48,681 nucleotides of DNA. Source: a virus. The notes under the pieces were generated by a model that was not told where the DNA came from, did not search any database, and worked only from the letters and a program-made list of their open reading frames with translations. The stretch is taken from positions 1-48,681 of IMG/VR virus record IMGVR_UViG_3300036398_001822; one strand, given 5' to 3'. Made by a program: the position numbers and the translations under genes. Shown in pieces: positions 1 to 48,377 of the stretch (the stretch's first letter is position 1; each line of letters opens with the position of its first letter).

Positions 1-1173
1 AAGAATATCAACCGGTGTTGAACCTTGATTAGACCCGTACAAATATCCAGATGCTAATATTCTTCCACCAGTATAAGTTCCACCATCAATTTTATATTCA
101 ACAGAACTATCAAGACCAGCATCATTCCAAGTTCCACCAACAGATGTTCCAGATGCTCTTACTTGCCAGTTATAAGTTGCATTATTTGTAATACCAAGAA
201 TTGAAAGTGCAGTTAGAATTACAATTGCATCCAATCTATTTGGTGTTGCTTTAAGGCGAATTGATATAACTGTATAATAAGTTCCTGCCGTTGTTAAATC
301 GACTGGTGTTTGAACAGGTGTTCCAACTGCCTGCTGCAATCCACGCAGTTCATAACCACCTTCTGAGATAACAGTAGAACAAACCTGTTTGAGTGTGCTT
401 GCACTAGTTGTAATTCCAGTGTTAGCAATCTCATATCTCAAAGGAAGAGATGCTGTTGTAATATAAGTTGATTGAATTAAGTTTGCGTGATGAAATGAGT
501 GTGCATGAATAAACTTTCCATCAATTACGAATCCAAGTCTTACTGTACCAAGTCCCAGCCACTCAATATCCATCCAAAGAATTTGTGCTTTGGAGATATC
601 TAATGTAATACCAGAAACACCAGTTCCATCTAATTTATCAATATTCCAATCAGATTGTGCAACTGAAGTTGAAGTTCCAGTAGATAAACTTCTTTCTACA
701 AAATAAGGTGTTGTTCCATTAATTTCAAAATACATTCCGTTATCAGCACCAAAATATCCAACTCTTTGTCTTAAGTTTGTTTTTGGTGTAGCAGGAATGA
801 AAGTATTTAAAACAAGTAATGATTTCCCTGGTTGATAAGAGAATACTTTTGTAGTTTCTCTAATAACAGAATCACCACTTGTAGTTCCAATTCCAATATT
901 GACTAATCCTTGAGCAGTTACAAATCCAACTGTAGAACCAGTTCCTACAATCAAACTATTCCAAAGATTGTTGTCTCCATATCTATGAGAGGAATCAAAT
1001 AAGGTAAGTGGTTGAGATGTTCTAGTTCTTCCAAAAGCATCTGGATTTACACTTACAGGAAATCTATTATAGTTATCAACAACATTTCCATCCCTCGTTG
1101 CGATTAAGGGAACCTCAAAAAGTGTTCTTTCTTGATTTAGAAAGTCTTGTTCATTTTTATTCCACTGTGCCAT
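1..1173 (-). CDS. Virion structural protein, C-terminus cut off by window edge
   Basis: The frame is open from an ATG at 1173 to the left edge (391 codons, no stop), so the true C-terminus lies outside the window. The protein starts MAQWNKNEQDFLNQERTLFE and continues with Ser/Thr/Gly-rich beta-type sequence such as DSSHRYGDNNLWNSLIVGTG and VGYFGADNGMYFEINGTTP. This style is typical of large cyanophage virion proteins. It lies three bases downstream of the 102-residue gene in the late cluster. Assignment as a structural protein rests on composition, position and resemblance to cyanophage virion proteins. The exact role (fibre, tail or head decoration) cannot be read from the sequence. Confidence 0.7.
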   Translation of the reverse strand, partial: MAQWNKNEQDFLNQERTLFEVPLIATRDGNVVDNYNRFPVSVNPDAFGRTRTSQPLTLFDSSHRYGDNNLWNSLIVGTGSTVGFVTAQGLVNIGIGTTSGDSVIRETTKVFSYQPGKSLLVLNTFIPATPKTNLRQRVGYFGADNGMYFEINGTTPYFVERSLSTGTSTSVAQSDWNIDKLDGTGVSGITLDISKAQILWMDIEWLGLGTVRLGFVIDGKFIHAHSFHHANLIQSTYITTASLPLRYEIANTGITTSASTLKQVCSTVISEGGYELRGLQQAVGTPVQTPVDLTTAGTYYTVISIRLKATPNRLDAIVILTALSILGITNNATYNWQVRASGTSVGGTWNDAGLDSSVEYKIDGGTYTGGRILASGYLYGSNQGSTPVDIL

Positions 1174-1176
1174 AAA

Positions 1177-1485
1177 TTACTCACCCCACGATAATCTTTC
1201 TGGTCTGTATCTTTCTGCGTTTTTAACTTTTATAGAAGTAGATTCTGCTGGATAGATATTATGAACTATCGCTCCAGGATATTCTTTTTGCAGTTGCTCT
1301 GCAAGTTGATTTTTATCCATCATCTTACCTTCAACTTCCATACGATATAATCTTCCTTGCCAAACTACATCTGCAAGAAAAGATTCGGTTGCTGTCTCTG
1401 GTTGAGATGAATTCATATAGAGATTTCCATTGAAATCTCCAGCAATATTGATACTTTCTGAAATGAATTGTTGAAAAGATTTCAT
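1177..1485 (-). CDS. Small protein with T4-type capsid targeting sequence (possible internal head protein)
   Basis: This is a 102-residue protein beginning MKSFQQFISES. T4 internal proteins begin MKTYQEFIAEA, a capsid targeting sequence that the prohead protease gp21 cuts after the (L/I)xE motif. Here I8-S9-E10 falls at the same register as I8-A9-E10 in T4. The predicted mature part (about residues 11-102) is short and soluble, with a GDFNGNLYMNSS stretch and a charged C-terminus (NAERYRPERLSWGE). The gene lies one base after the composite protein's stop and just before a virion protein gene, so it is probably late-expressed. Targeting is inferred from the N-terminus; the mature part is unrecognised. 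Confidence 0.6.
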   Translation of the reverse strand: MKSFQQFISESINIAGDFNGNLYMNSSQPETATESFLADVVWQGRLYRMEVEGKMMDKNQLAEQLQKEYPGAIVHNIYPAESTSIKVKNAERYRPERLSWGE

Positions 1486-1486
1486 T

Positions 1487-2911
1487 TTAGTTGCAGTTCC
1501 AACGACGGAGGGCTTTGTTGATTCTGGAATCTGGATCTCTTGCAGTTTTTGTGGAAGTCAGTTTTGATTTCATTCCAGACATACGACGGCAGAATGAAGC
1601 ACGACGTTTTGCTCTTTTACCTTCTGGATTTTTTTCAGTTACTGCAGTTTGAAGTTTTGAACCTGGATTCTCGCGACGATATGCATTAACTGCTTTTTGA
1701 CTTAAACCATCAGTCTTATCTTGACGATTAACTTTTTGCCAGTCTTCCGATAATCCAAAGTCTGCTCTCCAGTTTGAATATTCCTCTACCTTCATTTCAC
1801 CACTATCGATATAATCTGCGGCAGCATCAATATAATCTGCTGCTTTAGTAATTTTTGATTGAACCCACGCTTCAATATTACCTTCGCCCTTCATTTTTTT
1901 ACGAAGTCTCTTTGCAGCAGAGATGATTGTAGAAATTTCTGAGCGAGCCATTGAGTGCTCATGATCATAAGACTCTGGAAAATTACCAGGATGTACAGTT
2001 GCGATATTATATTTTAATTGATTAGTTGTTAGTGCTGAAGGAATTGAGAACATATCCCAATACTTTGGTCCATATTTGCACTCACTTCTAGTTTCATCTT
2101 TTTTGCATTTTGGACAATATCTGATCATTGATTGTTCCTCCTTTACTGGTACACAATTTGGGACCATTTTTTTACCTTTTTTCTTCATTCCTTCTTGCTT
2201 ATATCCATCCCAACAATCTTCTGATTTAGTTCCCCAGTTAGCAGCACCAACCTTACGGCACTTAACCAATGCTCCTGATGCATATGCACTTGGCCAAACA
2301 TCATATCTAGATTTTACTTTTTGATAACAAGCATCTTTCTTACCACTACCCTTGCCTGGTTTATCTTTAACTTCTTGTAAGTTCATTTCTTCAGTTCTTA
2401 CGTTTGTTGGTTTAGCGCCACCAGTTTTTTCTGGTTGATTTGGATCTAATCTATTTTTTCTTCTTCTTGCCGCCTCTTCTTCATCTTTAGACAAAGATCT
2501 TTTCATTTTTGAACTTCCGCATTTTGGAGTAGAAGTTTGACCTGGTTGACGGGCACAAGGTTTACCTGCCCATTTTCCACCTAACTGAACCCACCCCCTT
2601 TTACCATCAGATGATTTAGATTTATTAAACCAATCGTGAAGACCTTGATCCCCAGAAGTAGTTTCTTCTTTCACATCCTTAAACTTTTTATGATGCTTTT
2701 TAGCATCTGACTCCATTTTTTTCAAACGAGTATAATAATCTGGAATTTCATCTAGATGTTGAAGAGCAATATCTGTAGCAAGATCTTTATCTCTAGTATG
2801 CTCGTGCTCAATAGGAATTCCCATTTCAAGTTGCTTTCTTATGAAAGAAGCATCTAAGCGATGTTTCTTCGCAATTTCTTCAACTGTTTTATGGGGTTTG
2901 ACCTTATGCAC
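1487..2911 (-). CDS. Composite lysine-rich multi-module phage protein (DUF5661-like start, DUF6321-like end)
   Basis: The 474-residue protein appears to be assembled from several short modules seen in cyanophage proteins. Residues about 1-75 (MHKVKPHKTVEEIAKKH ... ALQHLDEIPDYYTRL) resemble DUF5661. About 95-175 is a GKRGW/GKPCARQPGQTSTPKC Arg/Lys-rich module. About 190-260 has paired Cys/Trp motifs (DACYQKVKSRYDVWPSAYAS, EDCWDGYKQEG). About 265-282 has a zinc-ribbon-like CPKC plus SECKYG. About 345-370 is an AWVQSKITKAADYIDAAADY helix. The C-terminus from about 395 (KVNRQDKTDGLSQKAV ... RRWNCN) resembles DUF6321. The start is a GTG at 2911. It sits after gp16, where T4 has gp17. Function is unknown; basicity and CxxC motifs suggest nucleic-acid contact. 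Confidence 0.6.
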   Translation of the reverse strand: MHKVKPHKTVEEIAKKHRLDASFIRKQLEMGIPIEHEHTRDKDLATDIALQHLDEIPDYYTRLKKMESDAKKHHKKFKDVKEETTSGDQGLHDWFNKSKSSDGKRGWVQLGGKWAGKPCARQPGQTSTPKCGSSKMKRSLSKDEEEAARRRKNRLDPNQPEKTGGAKPTNVRTEEMNLQEVKDKPGKGSGKKDACYQKVKSRYDVWPSAYASGALVKCRKVGAANWGTKSEDCWDGYKQEGMKKKGKKMVPNCVPVKEEQSMIRYCPKCKKDETRSECKYGPKYWDMFSIPSALTTNQLKYNIATVHPGNFPESYDHEHSMARSEISTIISAAKRLRKKMKGEGNIEAWVQSKITKAADYIDAAADYIDSGEMKVEEYSNWRADFGLSEDWQKVNRQDKTDGLSQKAVNAYRRENPGSKLQTAVTEKNPEGKRAKRRASFCRRMSGMKSKLTSTKTARDPDSRINKALRRWNCN

Positions 2912-2926
2912 AATAATAAAAAATTA

Positions 2927-3349
2927 TTACTCTTTATTATTTAGAAAACCTTGTTTGAGTAGTTTTGAAAGTTCTGATGTAGATCCAACAAATACCGCAT
3001 TGTTTGTAACGTTATTGGTTGTTTTAACTACATCTTCTTCAACATCTTTAAGTTTCTTTTGAAGATCAATTAGTTTATCTGTAACATCTCCAACAGATTT
3101 AATTAACTGACCTGCAACTTCATATGCTCTTGGACTCCCTCCCTCTCCAGCAAGTTCCATTATTCCATTAATCGCCTCTTGACCCTTCTCAATCAATGAA
3201 TACAAATTTGCACGAGTGTATTCATAGTCTTTTTTTATGTCGTCAGACTTTAATGGTGCAATATTTAATTGCTCTTTTACTTCGTCTACTTCGACTATTT
3301 TACTCTCGATGTTGAGAGCATCGTCCAATCCCTCATAATTATTCTTCAT
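2927..3349 (-). CDS. 16: Terminase small subunit gp16
   Basis: The 140-residue protein has the cyanophage gp16 core DYEYTRANLYSLIEKGQEAI ... SPRAYEVAGQLIKSVGDVTD followed by a lysine-rich coiled-coil segment (KLIDLQKKLKDVEEDV). In T4-like phages gp16 recognises concatemeric DNA and stimulates the large terminase gp17 at the portal during packaging. An upstream TTG would add three residues, but the ATG at 3349 has a GAG five bases upstream and is preferred. It follows gp15, as in T4. The usual next gene, gp17, is not in the window; the composite protein follows instead. Confidence 0.85.
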   Translation of the reverse strand: MKNNYEGLDDALNIESKIVEVDEVKEQLNIAPLKSDDIKKDYEYTRANLYSLIEKGQEAINGIMELAGEGGSPRAYEVAGQLIKSVGDVTDKLIDLQKKLKDVEEDVVKTTNNVTNNAVFVGSTSELSKLLKQGFLNNKE

Positions 3350-3354
3350 AATTC

Positions 3355-4152
3355 TCAAATATCAGTTTGTTGTGTTGGACTAAATGTTTTTGAGTCCGAA
3401 AAATCTAACCATTCCTCATCAAATCCAAAATTATCACCAGGTTCTGCATCGTAAGGATCTGGTTGAACAGTGTATCTAACTTCTCTCTTAGCAGTTTGTC
3501 TATTCGCATCGGTATACATATCAACCTGAACCTTACGAATAAGACCATCAGTGGTATCTGCAATAGGACCAAACAGATATGCTTTTACTGTAAAATTGAA
3601 AGTATAGATCAAAATTCTTCTTGTAGAAAAATCACCTTCATAATCATCGGTAAAAGATACATTATCTAAAACAACAGGAATATCCCTCTTTTCCCCAATT
3701 GAATCAACTAAATCTACAGTTAGATTAAATGAAGGTTGGAAATAAGGCAAAATTTGCTCAACAACTTGTAGAGCATCATCTTGAAGTTTGGTCATTAGAT
3801 TCAATTGGAATCCAATATTATATGGAACTGGAAGAAAAACCTTCTTAAGATTTGACCCATCACATGCTCTAAATGTTTGTGTTACATTTGCTTTTCGAGT
3901 CGGATCATATTGAATGGAATTCATTTCAAATGCCAGTCTAGGCAAAGTCATGGCAATTGGTTTATTAAGTTCAGGTTGCTGCTCAATTCTTGCTAAGAAT
4001 TTTTGAATGGGTCCATATGCTAACGGAACCTTCATCTCACTAATACTATCTCCAGAAGAATCTTTATGTCGTATATAAATTTCATTAAATAATGTGCCAA
4101 AGGCAATTACTGTTCTTCTTATTATTTCATGATAATAATAGTTTCCTAACAT
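3355..4152 (-). CDS. 15: Tail completion / sheath stabiliser protein gp15
   Basis: The 265-residue protein is close in length to T4 gp15. It starts MLGNYYYHEIIRRTVIAFGT and contains the segment QKFLARIEQQPELNKPIAMT and the block VPYNIGFQLNLMTKLQDDAL, characteristic of the cyanophage gp15 tail sheath stabiliser. In T4, gp15 forms the hexameric terminator ring of tail tube and sheath and joins the tail to the gp13/gp14 neck. The start codon overlaps the gp14 stop (TAATG), which suggests translational coupling. Order gp13-gp14-gp15-gp16 matches T4. Confidence 0.9.
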   Translation of the reverse strand: MLGNYYYHEIIRRTVIAFGTLFNEIYIRHKDSSGDSISEMKVPLAYGPIQKFLARIEQQPELNKPIAMTLPRLAFEMNSIQYDPTRKANVTQTFRACDGSNLKKVFLPVPYNIGFQLNLMTKLQDDALQVVEQILPYFQPSFNLTVDLVDSIGEKRDIPVVLDNVSFTDDYEGDFSTRRILIYTFNFTVKAYLFGPIADTTDGLIRKVQVDMYTDANRQTAKREVRYTVQPDPYDAEPGDNFGFDEEWLDFSDSKTFSPTQQTDI

Positions 4153-5543
4153 TAGAAGGTCCCAAATGGATTAGATTCTGTGAAATCGATGATGCCGTCC
4201 GCAGCATTTTCAATTTCTATATTTTCACTATATTTATCATATAGATCCCAATTATTATAAGATTGTACCGAATATATTGCACTAGATGCTGCTCCAACAA
4301 CAAGTTCTCCAGGATAGAATCCTTTAGTTGTGACGTTATCTACAAAAGAAACCTTAAGAATCTTAGTATCACTATCCCAATATTTAACACGAGCTCTTGT
4401 TCCAGAACTCGATCCAAATACTTCCTCATTAAACAGATAAGTTCCAATTCCAGATAAAACTGGTGGTGGAGCAATGATAACTGTTGGGGCAACAGTATAT
4501 CCAGAACCAGGATTTACAATCCTAATAGAACTAATTGATTGTCCAGCACCAACTATTGCGATAGCAGATGCTGTCTGTCCAGAACCAACAGATCCAACAA
4601 TGCTCACTATTGGTGAATTTACATATCCAATACCATTGTTTGTAACATCAAATTTCACAATTCCACTTCTAATAGTTTCAATAGAACAAGTGGCTAATGC
4701 ATCAGATCCACCTCCTCCAACTATAGAAATTATTGGCGCAACTGTATATCCTGCACCAGCATTTGTAAGTTGAATAGACTGAATTGAATAAACTCCAGCT
4801 CTAGAGGTTGTAATTGCTACAGCAGATGCATTTATGCCACCTATTGGTGCGGATGAAATTGCTACAGTTGGAGTAGTTGTATAATCATATCCATCATTGT
4901 TTAAAAATATTTGACGTATATATCCAGTACCAATTGTCGATGTAGCTTCTGCTGTAGATCCTAAACCAATTAATTGTAATGTGCTGATATATCCCTGATC
5001 TTCTATTTGCGTATCAATTTCATCAATACTTGTATCAATGACCTCATCTTCATATTCAAATAGTTCACATCTCAATTCATAGACATATAACTTACCTAGT
5101 TGATAAAAATTGACTTCATGCTCTACAAATTTTACTTCAAAAAGTCTTTGTCCCAATGGAAAATAAACCAAATCTCCTTCCCTTGGTCTTGAAGCAAGAA
5201 CAATTTCATCATCATTTAAACCATCTAAAAATGGAGATATAAAGTCTTCAAAACGTTCTTTTGAAATAATCAGACTTAATTCATCCTTTAAACTAACACC
5301 AAATTTAGTTAATAAGTCTCCCTGACCAGTATATCCATCATAGTTATTAATATATGCTTCAATTGCGAAATTATCATCAAATCTTGATGATTGGATTTCT
5401 TTTAAGATAGTTTGTTTCCTTACAAATTTTCTGGGTATATAAGTCACCTCTATACCATAAATTCTCAACTGCTCGTTAATTAATTCTTGAACGAGTCTCT
5501 GTTCATTTTGTGATCCCTGTAAGAAAAATGGATTAAGAGTCAT
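4152..5543 (-). CDS. 14: Neck protein gp14, expanded by GxGY repeats
   Basis: Residues 1-185 match the cyanophage neck protein gp14 (start MTLNPFFLQGSQNEQRLVQE, then GYTGQGDLLTKFGVSLKDEL and REGDLVYFPLGQRLFEVKFV). T4 gp14 is about 256 residues and, with gp13, closes the filled head. This protein is 463 residues because about 190-400 holds several repeats of the type GAGYTVAPIISIVGG / GSGYTVAPTVIIAPP. The C-terminus (YNNWDLYDKYSENIEIENAA ... NPFGTF) returns to the gp14 pattern. The stop overlaps the gp15 start and the start overlaps the gp13 stop. The repeat insertion probably forms a surface beta domain. Confidence 0.88.
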   Translation of the reverse strand: MTLNPFFLQGSQNEQRLVQELINEQLRIYGIEVTYIPRKFVRKQTILKEIQSSRFDDNFAIEAYINNYDGYTGQGDLLTKFGVSLKDELSLIISKERFEDFISPFLDGLNDDEIVLASRPREGDLVYFPLGQRLFEVKFVEHEVNFYQLGKLYVYELRCELFEYEDEVIDTSIDEIDTQIEDQGYISTLQLIGLGSTAEATSTIGTGYIRQIFLNNDGYDYTTTPTVAISSAPIGGINASAVAITTSRAGVYSIQSIQLTNAGAGYTVAPIISIVGGGGSDALATCSIETIRSGIVKFDVTNNGIGYVNSPIVSIVGSVGSGQTASAIAIVGAGQSISSIRIVNPGSGYTVAPTVIIAPPPVLSGIGTYLFNEEVFGSSSGTRARVKYWDSDTKILKVSFVDNVTTKGFYPGELVVGAASSAIYSVQSYNNWDLYDKYSENIEIENAADGIIDFTESNPFGTF

Positions 5544-6385
5544 TATCCAATAAAGTCGTAAGGTGGAAGTTCATAATCCATAGACATTCTCTGTCTAATA
5601 CTTTCTATTTCTTTCTCAGCATCGTCATATATTTCTCTACCATTTAGTTCAATTCCTCCAGGAAGCTTAACTCCTCTGAATTTAATTAAATTTTGTCCCC
5701 ATTGTCTTTTCATTAATGCAGTTAAATAACGCTTCAAGAAACTATCGTTATAAACTCTAGTAAAATCATTTGGGTCTAAAATTCTATAGCAATCAATTAC
5801 AATAAATGTATCTTTTGCCTTTGAATCCCAATCTATATCCAAATATAATCTATCTTGCCTTTTATTAAATCTAATTTGTTTGTCAGTAGAAAGGAGGAAG
5901 TCAATATCTTCAAGGTAAGTTTTTACCATTGCATATTGTAAAAGTTCAACGGAATTAAAATAATATAAATCATTTAGGAATAATTGATATTTAATGCTCC
6001 ACATACCAGCGGAGATTGAACTAGTATCAAATTTAAAGATTTTTTCTATACCTATAACACTATCAGGAACCTGAATGAAGTTAGAATTCTCATAAAAATT
6101 AAAAGTTGTTGAACCTATACCAGATATATTTCCAGTTGTTGTAGTTGTTACAATTCCAACTCCATTTGTACCTTTTGCTTTTCCTCTATCAATATCTTCT
6201 TGAGTGATTTTGTATTTCAAATACATTCTTTCCACACCATCAAAGTGTCTTTCCTGGAAATATTGTAAAGCATCATCAACTAAGTCATCAATTTGTTCAT
6301 CCGCCAAATTAATTTCTAGTACTGGAGCACCTAACTGTCTTAAGCAATAATCAATAAGTTGTTGTCTACTTGCCGGTTTTGACAT
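5543..6385 (-). CDS. 13: Neck protein gp13
   Basis: The 280-residue protein starts MSKPASRQQLIDYCLRQLGA and contains NLADEQIDDLVDDALQYFQE and a C-terminal VYNDSFLKRYLTALMKRQWG block, which are the signature segments of T4-like gp13. T4 gp13 (about 309 residues) forms the neck connector under the portal. A longer frame to 6421 exists, but the ATG at 6385 starts the conserved segment directly after the upstream stop, with AGGA upstream. The stop overlaps the gp14 start, consistent with coupled neck genes. Confidence 0.9.
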   Translation of the reverse strand: MSKPASRQQLIDYCLRQLGAPVLEINLADEQIDDLVDDALQYFQERHFDGVERMYLKYKITQEDIDRGKAKGTNGVGIVTTTTTGNISGIGSTTFNFYENSNFIQVPDSVIGIEKIFKFDTSSISAGMWSIKYQLFLNDLYYFNSVELLQYAMVKTYLEDIDFLLSTDKQIRFNKRQDRLYLDIDWDSKAKDTFIVIDCYRILDPNDFTRVYNDSFLKRYLTALMKRQWGQNLIKFRGVKLPGGIELNGREIYDDAEKEIESIRQRMSMDYELPPYDFIG

Positions 6386-6387
6386 TT

Positions 6388-6840
6388 TTAATAGGATCCT
6401 CCATCTATAACACTTGCCCAAGAGGGAATTCCTGAGCTATTGGTTGAAAGTATATAGTTTGTTTCCGATATTGCTGAAAAAGTTGATGCAGTAGAAACGA
6501 GTTGATCATTGGCATCAAAATAAGCGATTCCATATGGTTCGCCCGCTGGATAATAAAATGATTGTCCAACAGTAAGAATACCTGTTACATTGGCGTTTCT
6601 AGCAGTAAATTCATCAAATCTTAAATCATCGCTGATATATAAATCGCCATCAATATATACATCATTTTTAAAGGTTGCAACTCCAACAAATGTCGATATC
6701 CCACTCACATTTAATTGAGTGACGGATGCTATACCACCAATAACATTAAATGATGTTGCAGATGAATCTGACGATCCTCCAAGACTCGAAACTACTTTAA
6801 TTGTATTTTGTTGTCCAACTCTAACTTTGATATCGGACAT
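6388..6840 (-). CDS. Fibre-like virion structural protein (150 aa)
   Basis: The protein starts MSDIKVRVGQQNTIKVVSSL and contains VSGISTFVGVATFKNDVYID and TGILTVGQSFYYPAG. Such V-G-I-S-T/V-T-G-I-L repeats are typical of trimeric beta-structured fibre or whisker proteins of cyanophages. It lies between the large tail proteins and gp13, where T4 has gp11, gp12 and wac. It overlaps the upstream structural gene by one base and precedes gp13 by two. The exact role is unknown. Confidence 0.65.
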   Translation of the reverse strand: MSDIKVRVGQQNTIKVVSSLGGSSDSSATSFNVIGGIASVTQLNVSGISTFVGVATFKNDVYIDGDLYISDDLRFDEFTARNANVTGILTVGQSFYYPAGEPYGIAYFDANDQLVSTASTFSAISETNYILSTNSSGIPSWASVIDGGSY

Positions 6841-32321: not shown

Positions 32322-33079
32322 CAAATAATCCTTGATTTTTCGTGACCGACTCTGATGCGAGGATCGCACCAAATTTCAAATCCTGCTTCTTTTGCATCCA
32401 AACAGAACGATACATCTTCTCCACACATATCCTGAACTTGACCAGACTCAAAGACTTGCATCTTAGGAGCAAACCATGGATACTTCATCTCCGAATGTTC
32501 AAATACACCGTTTTTAATCAGAACCCAACCAAAACCAGTGTAGTCAACTGTGAAAGGCTTACGACGCTTTGAGATGCTATCAACGGTTTCATGATTCATC
32601 ACTCCACCATTACCACGGAAATCATCTTCATCCAACCAGTGCGCCACTGAGGTTGTGTGACCGTCCTCTGTAGCATACCAACCAGCAGCGATATCCTTTT
32701 CCATTAGAACTAATTGCCAGAATTTTTCTGTATTGAAAACAATATCAGAATCAATCCAAAGTTGCCAATCATATTTAAGTTTTCCATCCCAGGGAATCTG
32801 ATCAGGTCCACGCAGTACATTCGCACCTAAACATTTGCATCGAGCAAAGTTTACCATCGATGAATAGTCCTGCGAGATCTGAATGCTTGCCCCCGATTGC
32901 ACAAGGTCAAAACACAGTTGCACGAAGTTCTTTAAGTATGTGTAAGATACACCTCTACCAGGAAGACAAAAAACAATTGACTTTCCTTTTACCATTTCTT
33001 TTGCCAGATCATAGTCCCATTCTTGTGTGGGTGATGCGACTACGGGCGATTTTGCTTTTACTGTAAATCCTTTAGCCAT
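32321..33079 (-). CDS. Putative glycosyltransferase (GT-A fold, GT2-like)
   Basis: The 252-residue protein has a Rossmann-like start (SIVFCLPGRGVSYTYLKNFV), a DxD-type metal/nucleotide-sugar motif in WQLWIDSDIVFNTEKFWQLV at about residues 105-125, and a late GEDVSFCLDAKEAGFEIWCD motif with RIRVGHEKS at the C-terminus, where GT-A enzymes place the catalytic base and a conserved His. Similar proteins occur in T4-like cyanophages. It could modify virion proteins or host surface sugars. It heads the coupled chain of small genes leading to speD. Confidence 0.72.
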   Translation of the reverse strand: MAKGFTVKAKSPVVASPTQEWDYDLAKEMVKGKSIVFCLPGRGVSYTYLKNFVQLCFDLVQSGASIQISQDYSSMVNFARCKCLGANVLRGPDQIPWDGKLKYDWQLWIDSDIVFNTEKFWQLVLMEKDIAAGWYATEDGHTTSVAHWLDEDDFRGNGGVMNHETVDSISKRRKPFTVDYTGFGWVLIKNGVFEHSEMKYPWFAPKMQVFESGQVQDMCGEDVSFCLDAKEAGFEIWCDPRIRVGHEKSRII

Positions 33080-45111: not shown

Positions 45112-45169
45112 ATTATAGCAGAAAACCCGCCTTGTGGGCGGGTCTTGTGACGGTTCAGAAAGCGTCAGA
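45112..45169 (-). promoter_or_regulatory. Promoter with dyad operator for the 41-aa gene
   Basis: TATAAT (45112-45117) 23 bases before the ATG. The dyad TGTGACG-N10-CGTCAGA (45146-45169) lies 28 bases upstream and covers the stop of the ParB-like gene. The terminator hairpin of that gene lies between them. Confidence 0.58.
45125..45143 (-). terminator. Terminator after the ParB-like gene
   Basis: A perfect ACCCGCC/GGCGGGT stem with a five-base loop, followed on the minus strand by TTTTC. It is probably an intrinsic terminator, although the U-tract is short. Confidence 0.6.
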
Positions 45170-46169
45170 GAGAAACGACGCCACCATCAGGATCGATATT
45201 AACTAACTGAGAGGGACGTACACCAAACTCAAAAGGCATCCAATTTTTATCTGCTTTAATGAGAACTGCCATTTCTTGAATTGCCTCGGCAAGTTCAAGA
45301 AACTCTCTCTTTTGTTCTTCAATCATTTTTTCAACGTCTTTTGCCTTAGTGCCATTTGGTGCAAAAAGATTCACGCGAGTGCGCCTTCCAGTTTCTTTAA
45401 AGTCTTTAAGAATATGGCAGAAGTTACGAGGTCCATGAGTGGCATTTGCAGTAGCAGCAAAGGTACGACCGTGAAGACCATCTTCGTCCAGTTTGCCTTT
45501 TGAAGCATATCCTTTCTGTTGAAGATATTCTGCTGCCTTTGCTTCCGAAAAAGTGGCAACAGAAGTGTCTGGATATGCCTTATCAAAGATACGATCAGTA
45601 ATCGTATTTACTTGGTCATTGGTAAAGGTGTGTTCGATGTTATTAATCCAACCTTTAATATCGACCTTGGAAACTGTCCGATTTGGATGACGTTTCACCC
45701 AAAGAATTCCTTTGGTAATAAAGTCATCGCGGGTTGCTTTCTTAGCTTGTGCATGGTTATTTGCTCCAAGACCAATCTCATCTTCAAGATCTTCTAAACA
45801 ATATCCTTCTTCCAATTCATAAACATCAAAAACCCAAGATTCTTGTTTACGAATTTTGAGAGCAGAAACGCGAGTGAATCCATCAATCAACTTATAGACT
45901 GCACCAACTTTTACAACAATAGGAGGAAGTTGATCGTAACGAATACCTTTAGCAAACTCACCGACCAGAGCATCAGTGTGTACAGTATCTGTACCTTCTG
46001 AACGTGCAGTATTCTTTTCAGTACCTCCACCAACATCAATTCTATCAATTTCAGAAATGATTGTGTTTACATATTTTCCAGACTTAAATTTTCGACGTGC
46101 TTCACGATTAGGAAGCATATCGATATTGGGAACTTCGCAACGAGCGATAGGAGTGTGATTTTGAGACAT
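45165..46169 (-). CDS. ParB-like nuclease-fold protein (334 aa)
   Basis: Residues about 74-105 (YDQLPPIVVKVGAVYKLIDG FTRVSALKIRKQESWVFDVY) match the ParB/Srx N-terminal fold with its LIDGxTRxxAL motif. After this come KKATRDDFITKGILWVKRHP and a helical C-terminal region (KAKDVEKMIEEQKREFLELA). Such proteins occur in many phages, some with DNA-nicking or CTPase activity. It lies in front of two DNA methyltransferase genes. A TATAGT -10 lies about 59 bases upstream. The terminator is at 45125-45143. Exact function is not evident. Confidence 0.65.
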   Translation of the reverse strand: MSQNHTPIARCEVPNIDMLPNREARRKFKSGKYVNTIISEIDRIDVGGGTEKNTARSEGTDTVHTDALVGEFAKGIRYDQLPPIVVKVGAVYKLIDGFTRVSALKIRKQESWVFDVYELEEGYCLEDLEDEIGLGANNHAQAKKATRDDFITKGILWVKRHPNRTVSKVDIKGWINNIEHTFTNDQVNTITDRIFDKAYPDTSVATFSEAKAAEYLQQKGYASKGKLDEDGLHGRTFAATANATHGPRNFCHILKDFKETGRRTRVNLFAPNGTKAKDVEKMIEEQKREFLELAEAIQEMAVLIKADKNWMPFEFGVRPSQLVNIDPDGGVVSL

Positions 46170-46260: not shown

Positions 46261-46974
46261 TTATTCGATTGTCACAGAATCTTCATACAACTGGAAAACG
46301 TCTCTCTTCTCACCGATTCCACGTACCGCCTTCTTCACACGCTCTTGCGTAATGTCAAAATACTGCTTGTCCATTTCAACACCAATAAACTTTCTACTGG
46401 TTTTCTTCGCAGCAATACCTACAGCACCACTACCCATACAAGGATCAAAAACAGTATCACCTCTCTGAGAACTTGCTTGAATTAATCTTTCCATTAATTC
46501 AATAGGTTTAGGTGTTGGGTGCCCTTTGTATTTTTCTGTAGCACATTTCCAAACTGCAGACTTGCACCTTTCATTAGGATTAAAATATGCTCCTTGCTTT
46601 CTAGCAAAAACACAATTCTCTATGCTTGAAATCCACATATACTGCCCATTCATGGGAGAAGGATTAGTTTTCTCCCATATACAGTGTCTCACAGATAGAC
46701 CATGATCTATCAATCTGTTGCGAATATGTGAGACTTGAACTGATCCACAAAAGATATAGATGCTTCCAGAAGTCACGCGCACGACTTCATCAATGAAATC
46801 ATCTAATGGAAATGTAATAATATCTGCATGACTTTTATCCAGATTTCTTAATCCACTACTCTTACGATTCACTTCATCGTATGGTATATCTGTAAGAGTA
46901 AGCGAAATGCTCCCATCAGCAAGTGAAGGGAGCACATTCATACAATCATCGTTATATAATTTTACATCGGTCAT
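46261..46974 (-). CDS. DNA methyltransferase, N4/N6 type with DIPY motif (237 aa)
   Basis: The catalytic motif IV is TDIPYDEVN at about residues 29-37; the usual form is (D/N/S)PP(Y/F), and here Ile replaces the first Pro. Motif I is FDPCMGSGAVGIAA near residue 200. IV before I gives the beta order. Other segments are SVQVSHIRNRLIDHGLSVRH, ISSIENCVFARKQGAYFNPN and GHPTPKPIELMERLIQASSQ (the PTPKP block that precedes motif I). It transfers a methyl group from AdoMet to DNA adenine N6 or cytosine N4. Target sequence and base are unknown. It lies between the ParB-like gene and the 128-residue gene. Confidence 0.8.
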   Translation of the reverse strand: MTDVKLYNDDCMNVLPSLADGSISLTLTDIPYDEVNRKSSGLRNLDKSHADIITFPLDDFIDEVVRVTSGSIYIFCGSVQVSHIRNRLIDHGLSVRHCIWEKTNPSPMNGQYMWISSIENCVFARKQGAYFNPNERCKSAVWKCATEKYKGHPTPKPIELMERLIQASSQRGDTVFDPCMGSGAVGIAAKKTSRKFIGVEMDKQYFDITQERVKKAVRGIGEKRDVFQLYEDSVTIE

Positions 46975-46989
46975 AGATTTTTTACTTAT

Positions 46990-47376
46990 TTACACAGCAA
47001 GGGCACCAGAAGGAATTTCAACGATTTCGGGCAGTTTGGTATCATCAAACTGATGCATATTATAGCACACCCACTCACCATTACGGAAGACATAAGCATA
47101 TTCTTCACTATTATCAGGAAGAAGATACTCACAGAGGTCAGCATCAAGGCGAGGAGGGCAATTCTCACCACGGGCAGAATAATACTCAGGTTGCTTATCT
47201 TCACCCCAGCAGACAGACATATCGCCACCATCAATCAGTTCGGAGGCAAGTTCTTTGCTGTTGTAGTGCGTCTTCAGAATGCGACCCAACCAGGACTCAT
47301 AACCATCCCAGTGGTGATAGGCAGAGAGAATAGAACCATCACGAAGTTCAATACCGATGCGAGCGCGGGTAGCCAT
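46990..47376 (-). CDS. Conserved phage protein with MATRARIGIELxDG start (128 aa)
   Basis: MATRARIGIELRDGSILSAY HHWDGYESWLGRILKTHYNS KELASELIDGGDMSVCWGED KQPEYYSARGENCPPRLDAD ... resembles proteins with MATRARIGIELxDGxxLSxYxHWDGYxxxLGxxL, widespread in phages. The C-terminus is acidic with DDTKLPEIVEIPSGALAV. The TATACT promoter and a dyad operator lie upstream. Function is unknown; it sits between two methyltransferase genes. Confidence 0.75.
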   Translation of the reverse strand: MATRARIGIELRDGSILSAYHHWDGYESWLGRILKTHYNSKELASELIDGGDMSVCWGEDKQPEYYSARGENCPPRLDADLCEYLLPDNSEEYAYVFRNGEWVCYNMHQFDDTKLPEIVEIPSGALAV

Positions 47377-47399
47377 CAGTGGTTTTCTTGAGTACCTTG

Positions 47400-48377
47400 T
47401 TAGTATAGGGCATCCATCAGGGCATTTGACTGCTGCTGTGCCAGTTCATCAACTGTCTCTTGAGCGATCCGAATTGCGTCTGGATTCACATCCATCGTGA
47501 TACAATTTCGCCCCAAACCAAAAGCAGAAATTGCTGTCGTTCCAGATCCACAGAAGGGGTCCAGAACCCATCCATCAGGCGGACAAGACGACTTTATGAT
47601 ACGTTCTAACAGTTTTAGGGGCTTTTGTGTGGGATATTTACGCTTATTCTGCTCACTTCTACTGATAAAGTATACATCATCCCATAAATTTTGCACTGGG
47701 ACACCCTTAGACTCATGAGAATAGATTTTTTTGTAAATGTTGTTGCTGCCGAAATGCAATAGACCCTGCTGGTCCAGATTTTCAAGTTTTTCCCTTGTTA
47801 TACGAAACCCATACTGAGGATTATAACCTTTATATTCATATCGGGCACATGGACGACTCTTTTCACCTGTTACTTTTGCGAGTGCGTAGTATCCTACCTC
47901 ATCTTTATTTTTAAAAGAGTTTGCAGCATAAACTGGATCAAGATCACCATACTCAACTTCAAAATATGGTTTTCCTTTTTGAAATACAACAATGCTGTCT
48001 ACAATATTACCCCAACCATTCTTTAGATTATTCTTTGGTCCACTTCTCTTCCAGGAAATGTTTGTGTAAAAAGCATCACGAACTTTACGATCTACTTTAG
48101 AAAGAACCAAAGCATTACCAATGAAGTTATTATGTGCATATAACCAACCATTCTTATTCAGTTTATCAAAACTGTTATTGATAACCTCAGCATACCAATC
48201 AATATAATCATCAAAGGAACTCCAAGTATCTGAGAATCCTTTCTCTTGACCGTCTTCTTCTTGCATTGTAAAGTCACGCTGCAAACCAAAGGGGGGATCC
48301 ATATAAACCAGATCAAATGTCTGATTAACCGTATTCAATTCTTCAACGGGTTTCTGGAGAATCTTAATTTCAGGCAT
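47400..48377 (-). CDS. DNA methyltransferase, N6-adenine type (325 aa)
   Basis: Motif IV is YMDPPFGLQRDF at about residues 30-41 and motif I is VLDPFCGSGTTAISAFG near residue 273, so this is also beta-type (IV before I), like many type III Mod-like and phage adenine methyltransferases. RKYPTQKPLKLLERIIKSSC precedes motif I. In between are HNNFIGNALVLSKVDRKVRD and SWKRSGPKNNLKNGWGNIVD. No restriction enzyme partner lies nearby, so it is an orphan phage methyltransferase, likely for protection from host restriction. It is preceded by the cp12 terminator. Confidence 0.85.
   Translation of the reverse strand: MPEIKILQKPVEELNTVNQTFDLVYMDPPFGLQRDFTMQEEDGQEKGFSDTWSSFDDYIDWYAEVINNSFDKLNKNGWLYAHNNFIGNALVLSKVDRKVRDAFYTNISWKRSGPKNNLKNGWGNIVDSIVVFQKGKPYFEVEYGDLDPVYAANSFKNKDEVGYYALAKVTGEKSRPCARYEYKGYNPQYGFRITREKLENLDQQGLLHFGSNNIYKKIYSHESKGVPVQNLWDDVYFISRSEQNKRKYPTQKPLKLLERIIKSSCPPDGWVLDPFCGSGTTAISAFGLGRNCITMDVNPDAIRIAQETVDELAQQQSNALMDALY
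47402..47460 (-). promoter_or_regulatory. Promoter with dyad operator for the 128-aa gene
   Basis: TATACT (47402-47407) is 25 bases before the ATG and overlaps the methyltransferase stop codon. The degenerate dyad TGTGCCA-N10-TGTCTCT (47437-47460) lies 29 bases upstream in the methyltransferase coding sequence. The leader has AAGGTACTCAAGAAAACCAC. Confidence 0.5.

Follow-up and report, generated by a model that had tools for sequence, protein, structure and literature searches.

A small gene among the head and neck genes of a cyanophage

The window, that is, the whole stretch of 48,681 nucleotides analysed from the IMG/VR virus record IMGVR_UViG_3300036398_001822, carries near its beginning a small open reading frame (ORF) that lies among head and tail genes in the order gp13, gp14, gp15, small terminase, DUF5661/DUF6321, ORF 1177-1485 and PHROG 1645. 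Barring inserted genes, the same head-tail order is found in S-SRM01, where the insertion is an HNH gene, and in S-SZBM1, and nearly the same order in S-SCSM1. The features discussed here are as follows.

1..1173, minus strand: virion structural protein of PHROG 1645 (E 1.1e-151), directly downstream of the ORF of interest and cut by the window end
1177..1485, minus strand: ORF of interest, with an ATG start, encoding a 102-aa member of PHROG 1742, a family with no function assigned
1456..1485, minus strand: codons 1-10, MKSFQQFISE, a putative T4-type capsid targeting sequence with a predicted cut after Glu10
1387..1455, minus strand: codons 11-33, a flexible linker past the predicted cut (AlphaFold2 pLDDT mostly below 50 for residues 10-32)
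1180..1386, minus strand: codons 34-102, a compact strand-strand-helix-strand domain (AlphaFold2 pLDDT near 90 over most of it)
1487..2911, minus strand: 474-aa DUF5661/DUF6321 protein, directly upstream of the ORF of interest
2927..6388, minus strand: small terminase, tail sheath stabiliser gp15 and neck proteins gp14 and gp13, upstream

The protein encoded by ORF 1177-1485, which begins MKSFQQFISESINIAGDF, matches PHROG 1742 over its full length (E 1.1e-38, residues 1-101). A homologue is present in 135 cyanophage records, and the closest one among named phages belongs to the freshwater cyanophage S-SRM01 (MW015081; 81% identity). Searches of Pfam, NCBIfam and PADLOC with the 102-aa protein gave no significant match; the best PDB sequence match of the family profile, replication protein A (E 0.5), was taken as chance. 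In the AlphaFold2 model, residues 1-32 are of low confidence and the compact domain starts at residue 34.

Some other features of the window were noted. Beyond gp25 and other late genes, between positions 33000 and 40000, the G+C content, about 0.34 at first, climbs to 0.59 near 34-36 kb and is back down by 40 kb; this G+C-rich stretch has the appearance of a foreign insertion or of a module very unlike the rest. Two adjoining DNA methyltransferase-like ORFs (46261-48377; 237 and 325 aa), with DPPY/DIPY-type motifs, and a ParB-like ORF of 334 aa beside them (45165-46169) were recognized by eye.

The N-terminal tag and the proteins that carry it

In the T4 record, the internal proteins IPII and IPIII both start with MKTYQEFIAEA, and IPI starts with MKTFKEF. 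The original prediction, which aligned MKSFQQFISES with the former sequence and placed an (L/I)xE cleavage motif at residues 8-10, is borne out: 6 of the first 10 residues are identical to those of IPII and IPIII (M1, K2, Q5, F7, I8 and E10), residue 4 is aromatic in both (F in the cyanophage protein, Y in IPII and IPIII), and residues 8-10 form the I-x-E triplet ISE. The ten N-terminal residues of T4 IPIII are sufficient for packaging, and mutations indicate that targeting depends mainly on residues 4 and 7, and processing on residues 8 and 10 (PMC9026906). M1, K2, F4, F7 and E10 do not vary across 51 aligned PHROG 1742 homologues, with the caveat that contig members were found using peptide seeds or patterns that contained the tag. 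At position 8 the homologues have I, L or M; the M seen in some, for example in S-SCSM1, is a slight departure from (L/I)xE. In a tblastn search of the phage collection, where the query was used without tag seeding, the listed homologues likewise align from residue 1.

The likeness to the T4 tag is far above chance. In the complete genome of S-SRM01, 4 of 600 ORFs begin with the pattern MK[STN][FY]..[FY][ILM].E and not one of the 82,927 internal positions matches it, with 0.001 N-terminal matches expected from shuffled N-termini and 0.003 under a column-independent model. For S-SCSM1, two tagged N-termini were found against 0.0015 expected, and the positive control, the T4 stretch, yielded two matches (IPII and IPIII). 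The DNA form of the tag matched 30 times in 12 virus records, and the reversed pattern once. Within the window, ORF 1177-1485 is the only one with the strict tag at its start, but further tagged proteins were found in relatives. The four in S-SRM01 are mutually unrelated and comprise, besides the PHROG 1742 member, a cytidylyltransferase (MKNFHQFITEA), a 67-aa HiPIP-like protein (MKSFQEFLFEE) and a 447-aa protein (L013:30324-31667; MKSFSQFLEES) that has no Pfam or PHROG match and is a candidate head cargo.

A scan of IMG/VR with the degenerate DNA form of the tag returned at least 124 matches on at least 120 contigs. Among the 124 matches listed, 123 open an ORF of at least 50 aa or run off the contig, 117 sit at the first ATG of the frame, and the sequences past residue 10 fall into at least 49 unrelated families; a T4-like core gene, or another S-SRM01 gene chosen as a marker, has a relative in 83 of the 120 contig stretches listed. 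Tagged proteins with recognized domains include S-adenosylmethionine (SAM) lyases (PF23780; E 2.4e-17 in contig L149 and 5.6e-16 in L134), CTP-transferase-like and HiPIP-like proteins, a DPBB lytic transglycosylase, DUF5661 and DUF6321 proteins, and a methyltransferase with a match just under the curated cut-off. The tagged lyases, located at L149:1441-2151, L198:3997-4725, L134:4592-5110 and L107:5266-5835, are possible head-delivered anti-restriction enzymes. Those of L149 and L198 also bear a PHROG 1742-like domain C-terminally, and L149 thus combines the tag, the SAM lyase and this domain in a single chain.

Published virion proteomes place several tagged proteins in cyanophage particles. 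The NMNAT of S-SCSM1, a virion protein by mass spectrometry (PMC9602691), starts with MKSFLQFLKE. In S-CREM2, which has 219 genes and 52 detected virion proteins (PMC10665884, Table 3), the virion list includes 4 of the 4 proteins whose N-termini fit [M/V]K.[FL]..FL.E (hypergeometric p 0.003, an indicative figure, as the sample is small and the pattern had been adjusted with the data in view); these are the SAM hydrolase gp6, which is homologous to the tagged PF23780 lyases of the contigs, gp13, the kinase gp14 and the cytidylyltransferase gp154. The looser scan pattern gives equally indicative enrichments, with 3 of 4 proteins detected (p 0.042), the additional match being an undetected 55-aa protein, or 4 of 5 when the GTG-started gene is counted (p 0.012). 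S-CREM2 gp136 (MQTFSMFFSE) was also detected in virions, and the detected cytidylyltransferase of S-SZBM1 starts with a shortened tag, MRFRQFIIEA.

The window ends short of the gp21 region, and the evidence for a gp21 homologue comes from relatives: gp21-type proteases are encoded by S-SRM01, S-SCSM1 and S-CREM2 and, by annotation, by S-SZBM1. The gp23 proteins of relatives contain FLSE^A, FLAE^A, LLTE^A or ILTE^A, compared with FLTE^A in T4 gp23. These gp23 sites would be cut by the protease, and the predicted cut FISE^S in the 102-aa protein fits their context. The assignment of the N-terminus as a putative T4-type capsid targeting sequence is well supported at the sequence level because the residues critical in T4 are invariant in the family and the tag recurs on unrelated proteins, and because tagged proteins occur in cyanophage virions and the relatives have both a gp21 homologue and gp23 with a matching cleavage context.

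A domain shared with DUF5661/DUF6321 proteins

Searches with hmmsearch detected a PHROG 1742-like domain embedded in many DUF5661/DUF6321-type proteins of other phages, usually encoded directly upstream. The stand-alone and embedded forms align with hhalign at 97.2% (E 3e-11), the PHROG 1742 profile also matches the embedded copies, and the predicted fold structurally matches DUF6321 proteins and the 517-aa ORF29 of S-SCSM1. The latter, a DUF5661/DUF6321 protein that is the counterpart of the 474-aa neighbour, contains the domain and was detected in virions. In the 474-aa neighbour of the window itself, an embedded domain was not found. Some homologues of this neighbour (in contigs L099 and L120) carry the tag.

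The embedded copies display a conspicuous sequence context. An invariant E, which corresponds to Glu10 of the stand-alone protein, precedes the domain in 24 of 24 aligned copies. The second residue ahead of this E is hydrophobic in 22 copies, and the one following the E is A or S in 21. We infer that the protease that would cut the tag may also release these embedded domains. PHROG 727 and other DUF5661/DUF6321 head proteins hold the domain within a long multidomain chain, whereas the 102-aa protein is a tagged single domain. An additional stand-alone tagged copy of the PHROG 1742-like domain is encoded by Sf-FS3. In S-SZBM1 (L220:7504-8318), a small DUF6321-like protein (MKTFKQYITEA) adjoins the PHROG 1742 homologue, and both are tagged.

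Possible roles in the head and beyond

The 102-aa protein shares with the T4 internal proteins the ten-residue tag (K2, an aromatic residue 4, F7, I/L/M8 and E10) and small size, and relatives of the window phage encode a gp21-type protease. As originally predicted, the mature part is unlike the T4 internal proteins: there is no sequence homology (the IPII region scores E 9.5), and the T4 proteins are basic (pI 9.0-9.7) whereas the cyanophage protein is acidic (pI 5.2, and 4.6-5.6 across the family). Furthermore, the T4 internal proteins are hypervariable, whereas the PHROG 1742 protein is conserved and placed among head-tail genes. The T4 head core proteins gp67 and gp68 have a role similar to the one proposed here, namely, prohead core targeting and gp21 processing; their N-termini are devoid of the tag, and a cursory comparison revealed no sequence similarity.

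The reading that we favour, and consider probable, is that the T4-type targeting sequence belongs to a minor protein of the head interior (core), one that acts alongside its DUF5661/DUF6321 neighbour. During head assembly, residues 1-10 would bind the prohead core, mainly through F4 and F7 as the T4 analogy suggests, and a gp21-type protease would then cut after Glu10. The mature product of about 92 residues (10.5 kDa), a flexible linker followed by the compact domain, would stay in the head together with the neighbouring gene product, which belongs to a family that carries this domain in other phages. A fraction of the molecules may exit with the DNA.

The virion proteomes constrain the abundance of such a protein. 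The PHROG 1742 homologue of S-SCSM1, SSCSM1_30, has no entry among the 45 virion proteins identified by mass spectrometry (PMC9602691), and that of S-SZBM1, SSZBM1_191, has none among the 30 published virion proteins; in both cases, the neighbours were detected. Such lists may miss scarce small proteins, and both homologues give tryptic peptides of usable length. Because hundreds of copies, as of the T4 internal proteins, would be detectable and yet the protein is unlisted, it appears to be scarce, lost on maturation like T4 gp68, or absent. A core or assembly factor confined to the prohead, which would be targeted, cut and then lost or broken down ahead of head maturation, accounts for the two gaps in the lists, given that T4 gp68 is likewise absent from mature heads (PMC9026906), and such a role also suits a conserved, single-copy gene in a fixed position amid head-tail genes. 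We regard this as a tentative possibility, against which stand the domain relatives embedded in a virion-retained protein, ORF29 of S-SCSM1, and the compact domain itself, where no further conserved (L/I)xE sites were noted.

The original prediction left open two roles, injected effector or head core protein, and of these the core or assembly role fits at least as well. An effector would be packaged, cut and ejected with the DNA to act in the host, for instance on RNA polymerase or a restriction enzyme, and there are precedents: T4 IPI-III, which bear the same tag, are injected GmrSD inhibitors (PMC12373910). Other tagged cargo includes SAM lyases, able to counter restriction, and that of L149 is fused to the PHROG 1742-like domain. 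The best fold matches of this domain are RNA polymerase binders as well, T7 Gp2 and RpoY, which have a similar small strand-strand-helix-strand fold and are among the best PDB matches (E 0.07 or worse). This likeness of the modelled domain is a lead only, with neither a significant E-value nor profile support for a Gp2-like RNA polymerase inhibitor: hhalign to the Gp2 family gave a probability below 1%, and with the embedded-domain model the Gp2 match was not recovered, RpoY alone appearing there, weakly. The effector role is so far unsupported because the PHROG 1742 protein is unlisted in two virion proteomes and is both acidic and strongly conserved, with a fixed place in the head-tail order; in particular, a conserved and syntenic rather than variable gene argues against a fast-evolving effector. 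Such a role is possible in our view, but less likely than not. We consider it quite improbable that the N-terminus is no packaging tag in these phages and instead serves some other purpose or reflects an inherited habit of sequence. The PHROG 1742 protein is missing from the two virion lists, but the rarity expected by chance, the lack of internal occurrences, the excess over the reversed pattern, the unrelated nature of the tagged cargo and the presence of tagged non-structural proteins in S-CREM2 and S-SCSM1 virions all speak for a tag.

Beyond the favoured role as a minor core protein, the more interesting result is the wider one, a head-packaging tag on many unrelated proteins of T4-like phages of aquatic bacteria, which is partially supported by the published virion proteomes. 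The head-carried proteins of marine and freshwater cyanophages are mostly unknown, and virion lists name kinases, SAM hydrolases and cytidylyltransferases without stating by which route they enter or whether they are contaminants. We give an even chance to the proposal that a single N-terminal code, MK[ST]F.[EQ]F[ILM].E, serves T4-like cyanophages and their relatives to load a wide range of proteins into the head, from which these would be delivered to the host, with the PHROG 1742 domain as a reusable module. The cargo would then include SAM lyases, nucleotidyltransferases, iron-sulphur, peptidase-like and ADP-ribosyltransferase-like proteins and the PHROG 1742 domain, and the module would come in three forms: alone behind the tag, as part of head polyproteins, where the same protease could cut it loose, and following a tagged SAM lyase in a fusion. 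If the tag predicts head cargo from sequence, virion lists can be turned into testable sets, and such a tag would point to the first phage proteins delivered into photosynthetic cells that rank among the most abundant on Earth. The tag has long been known in T-even coliphages; its extension to cyanophages appears unreported in the literature searched, which includes a review of T4 head work that treats capsid targeting and mentions cyanophage (PMC9026906).

Some minor observations concern tag-like sequences in other records. The virion of S-CREM2 is reported to contain a Cas9-like nuclease, gp12 (L216:7704-10313), whose residues 19-27 read RFASFMAEA. This tag-like sequence lies some way in from the N-terminus and could reflect a misannotated start or an internal variant. 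Tagged ADP-ribosyltransferase-like and HExxH-containing proteins were recognized by eye only, and proteins of both kinds are included in a cluster of five tagged genes (L204:6476-9422) on a 14-kb contig with T4-like genes.
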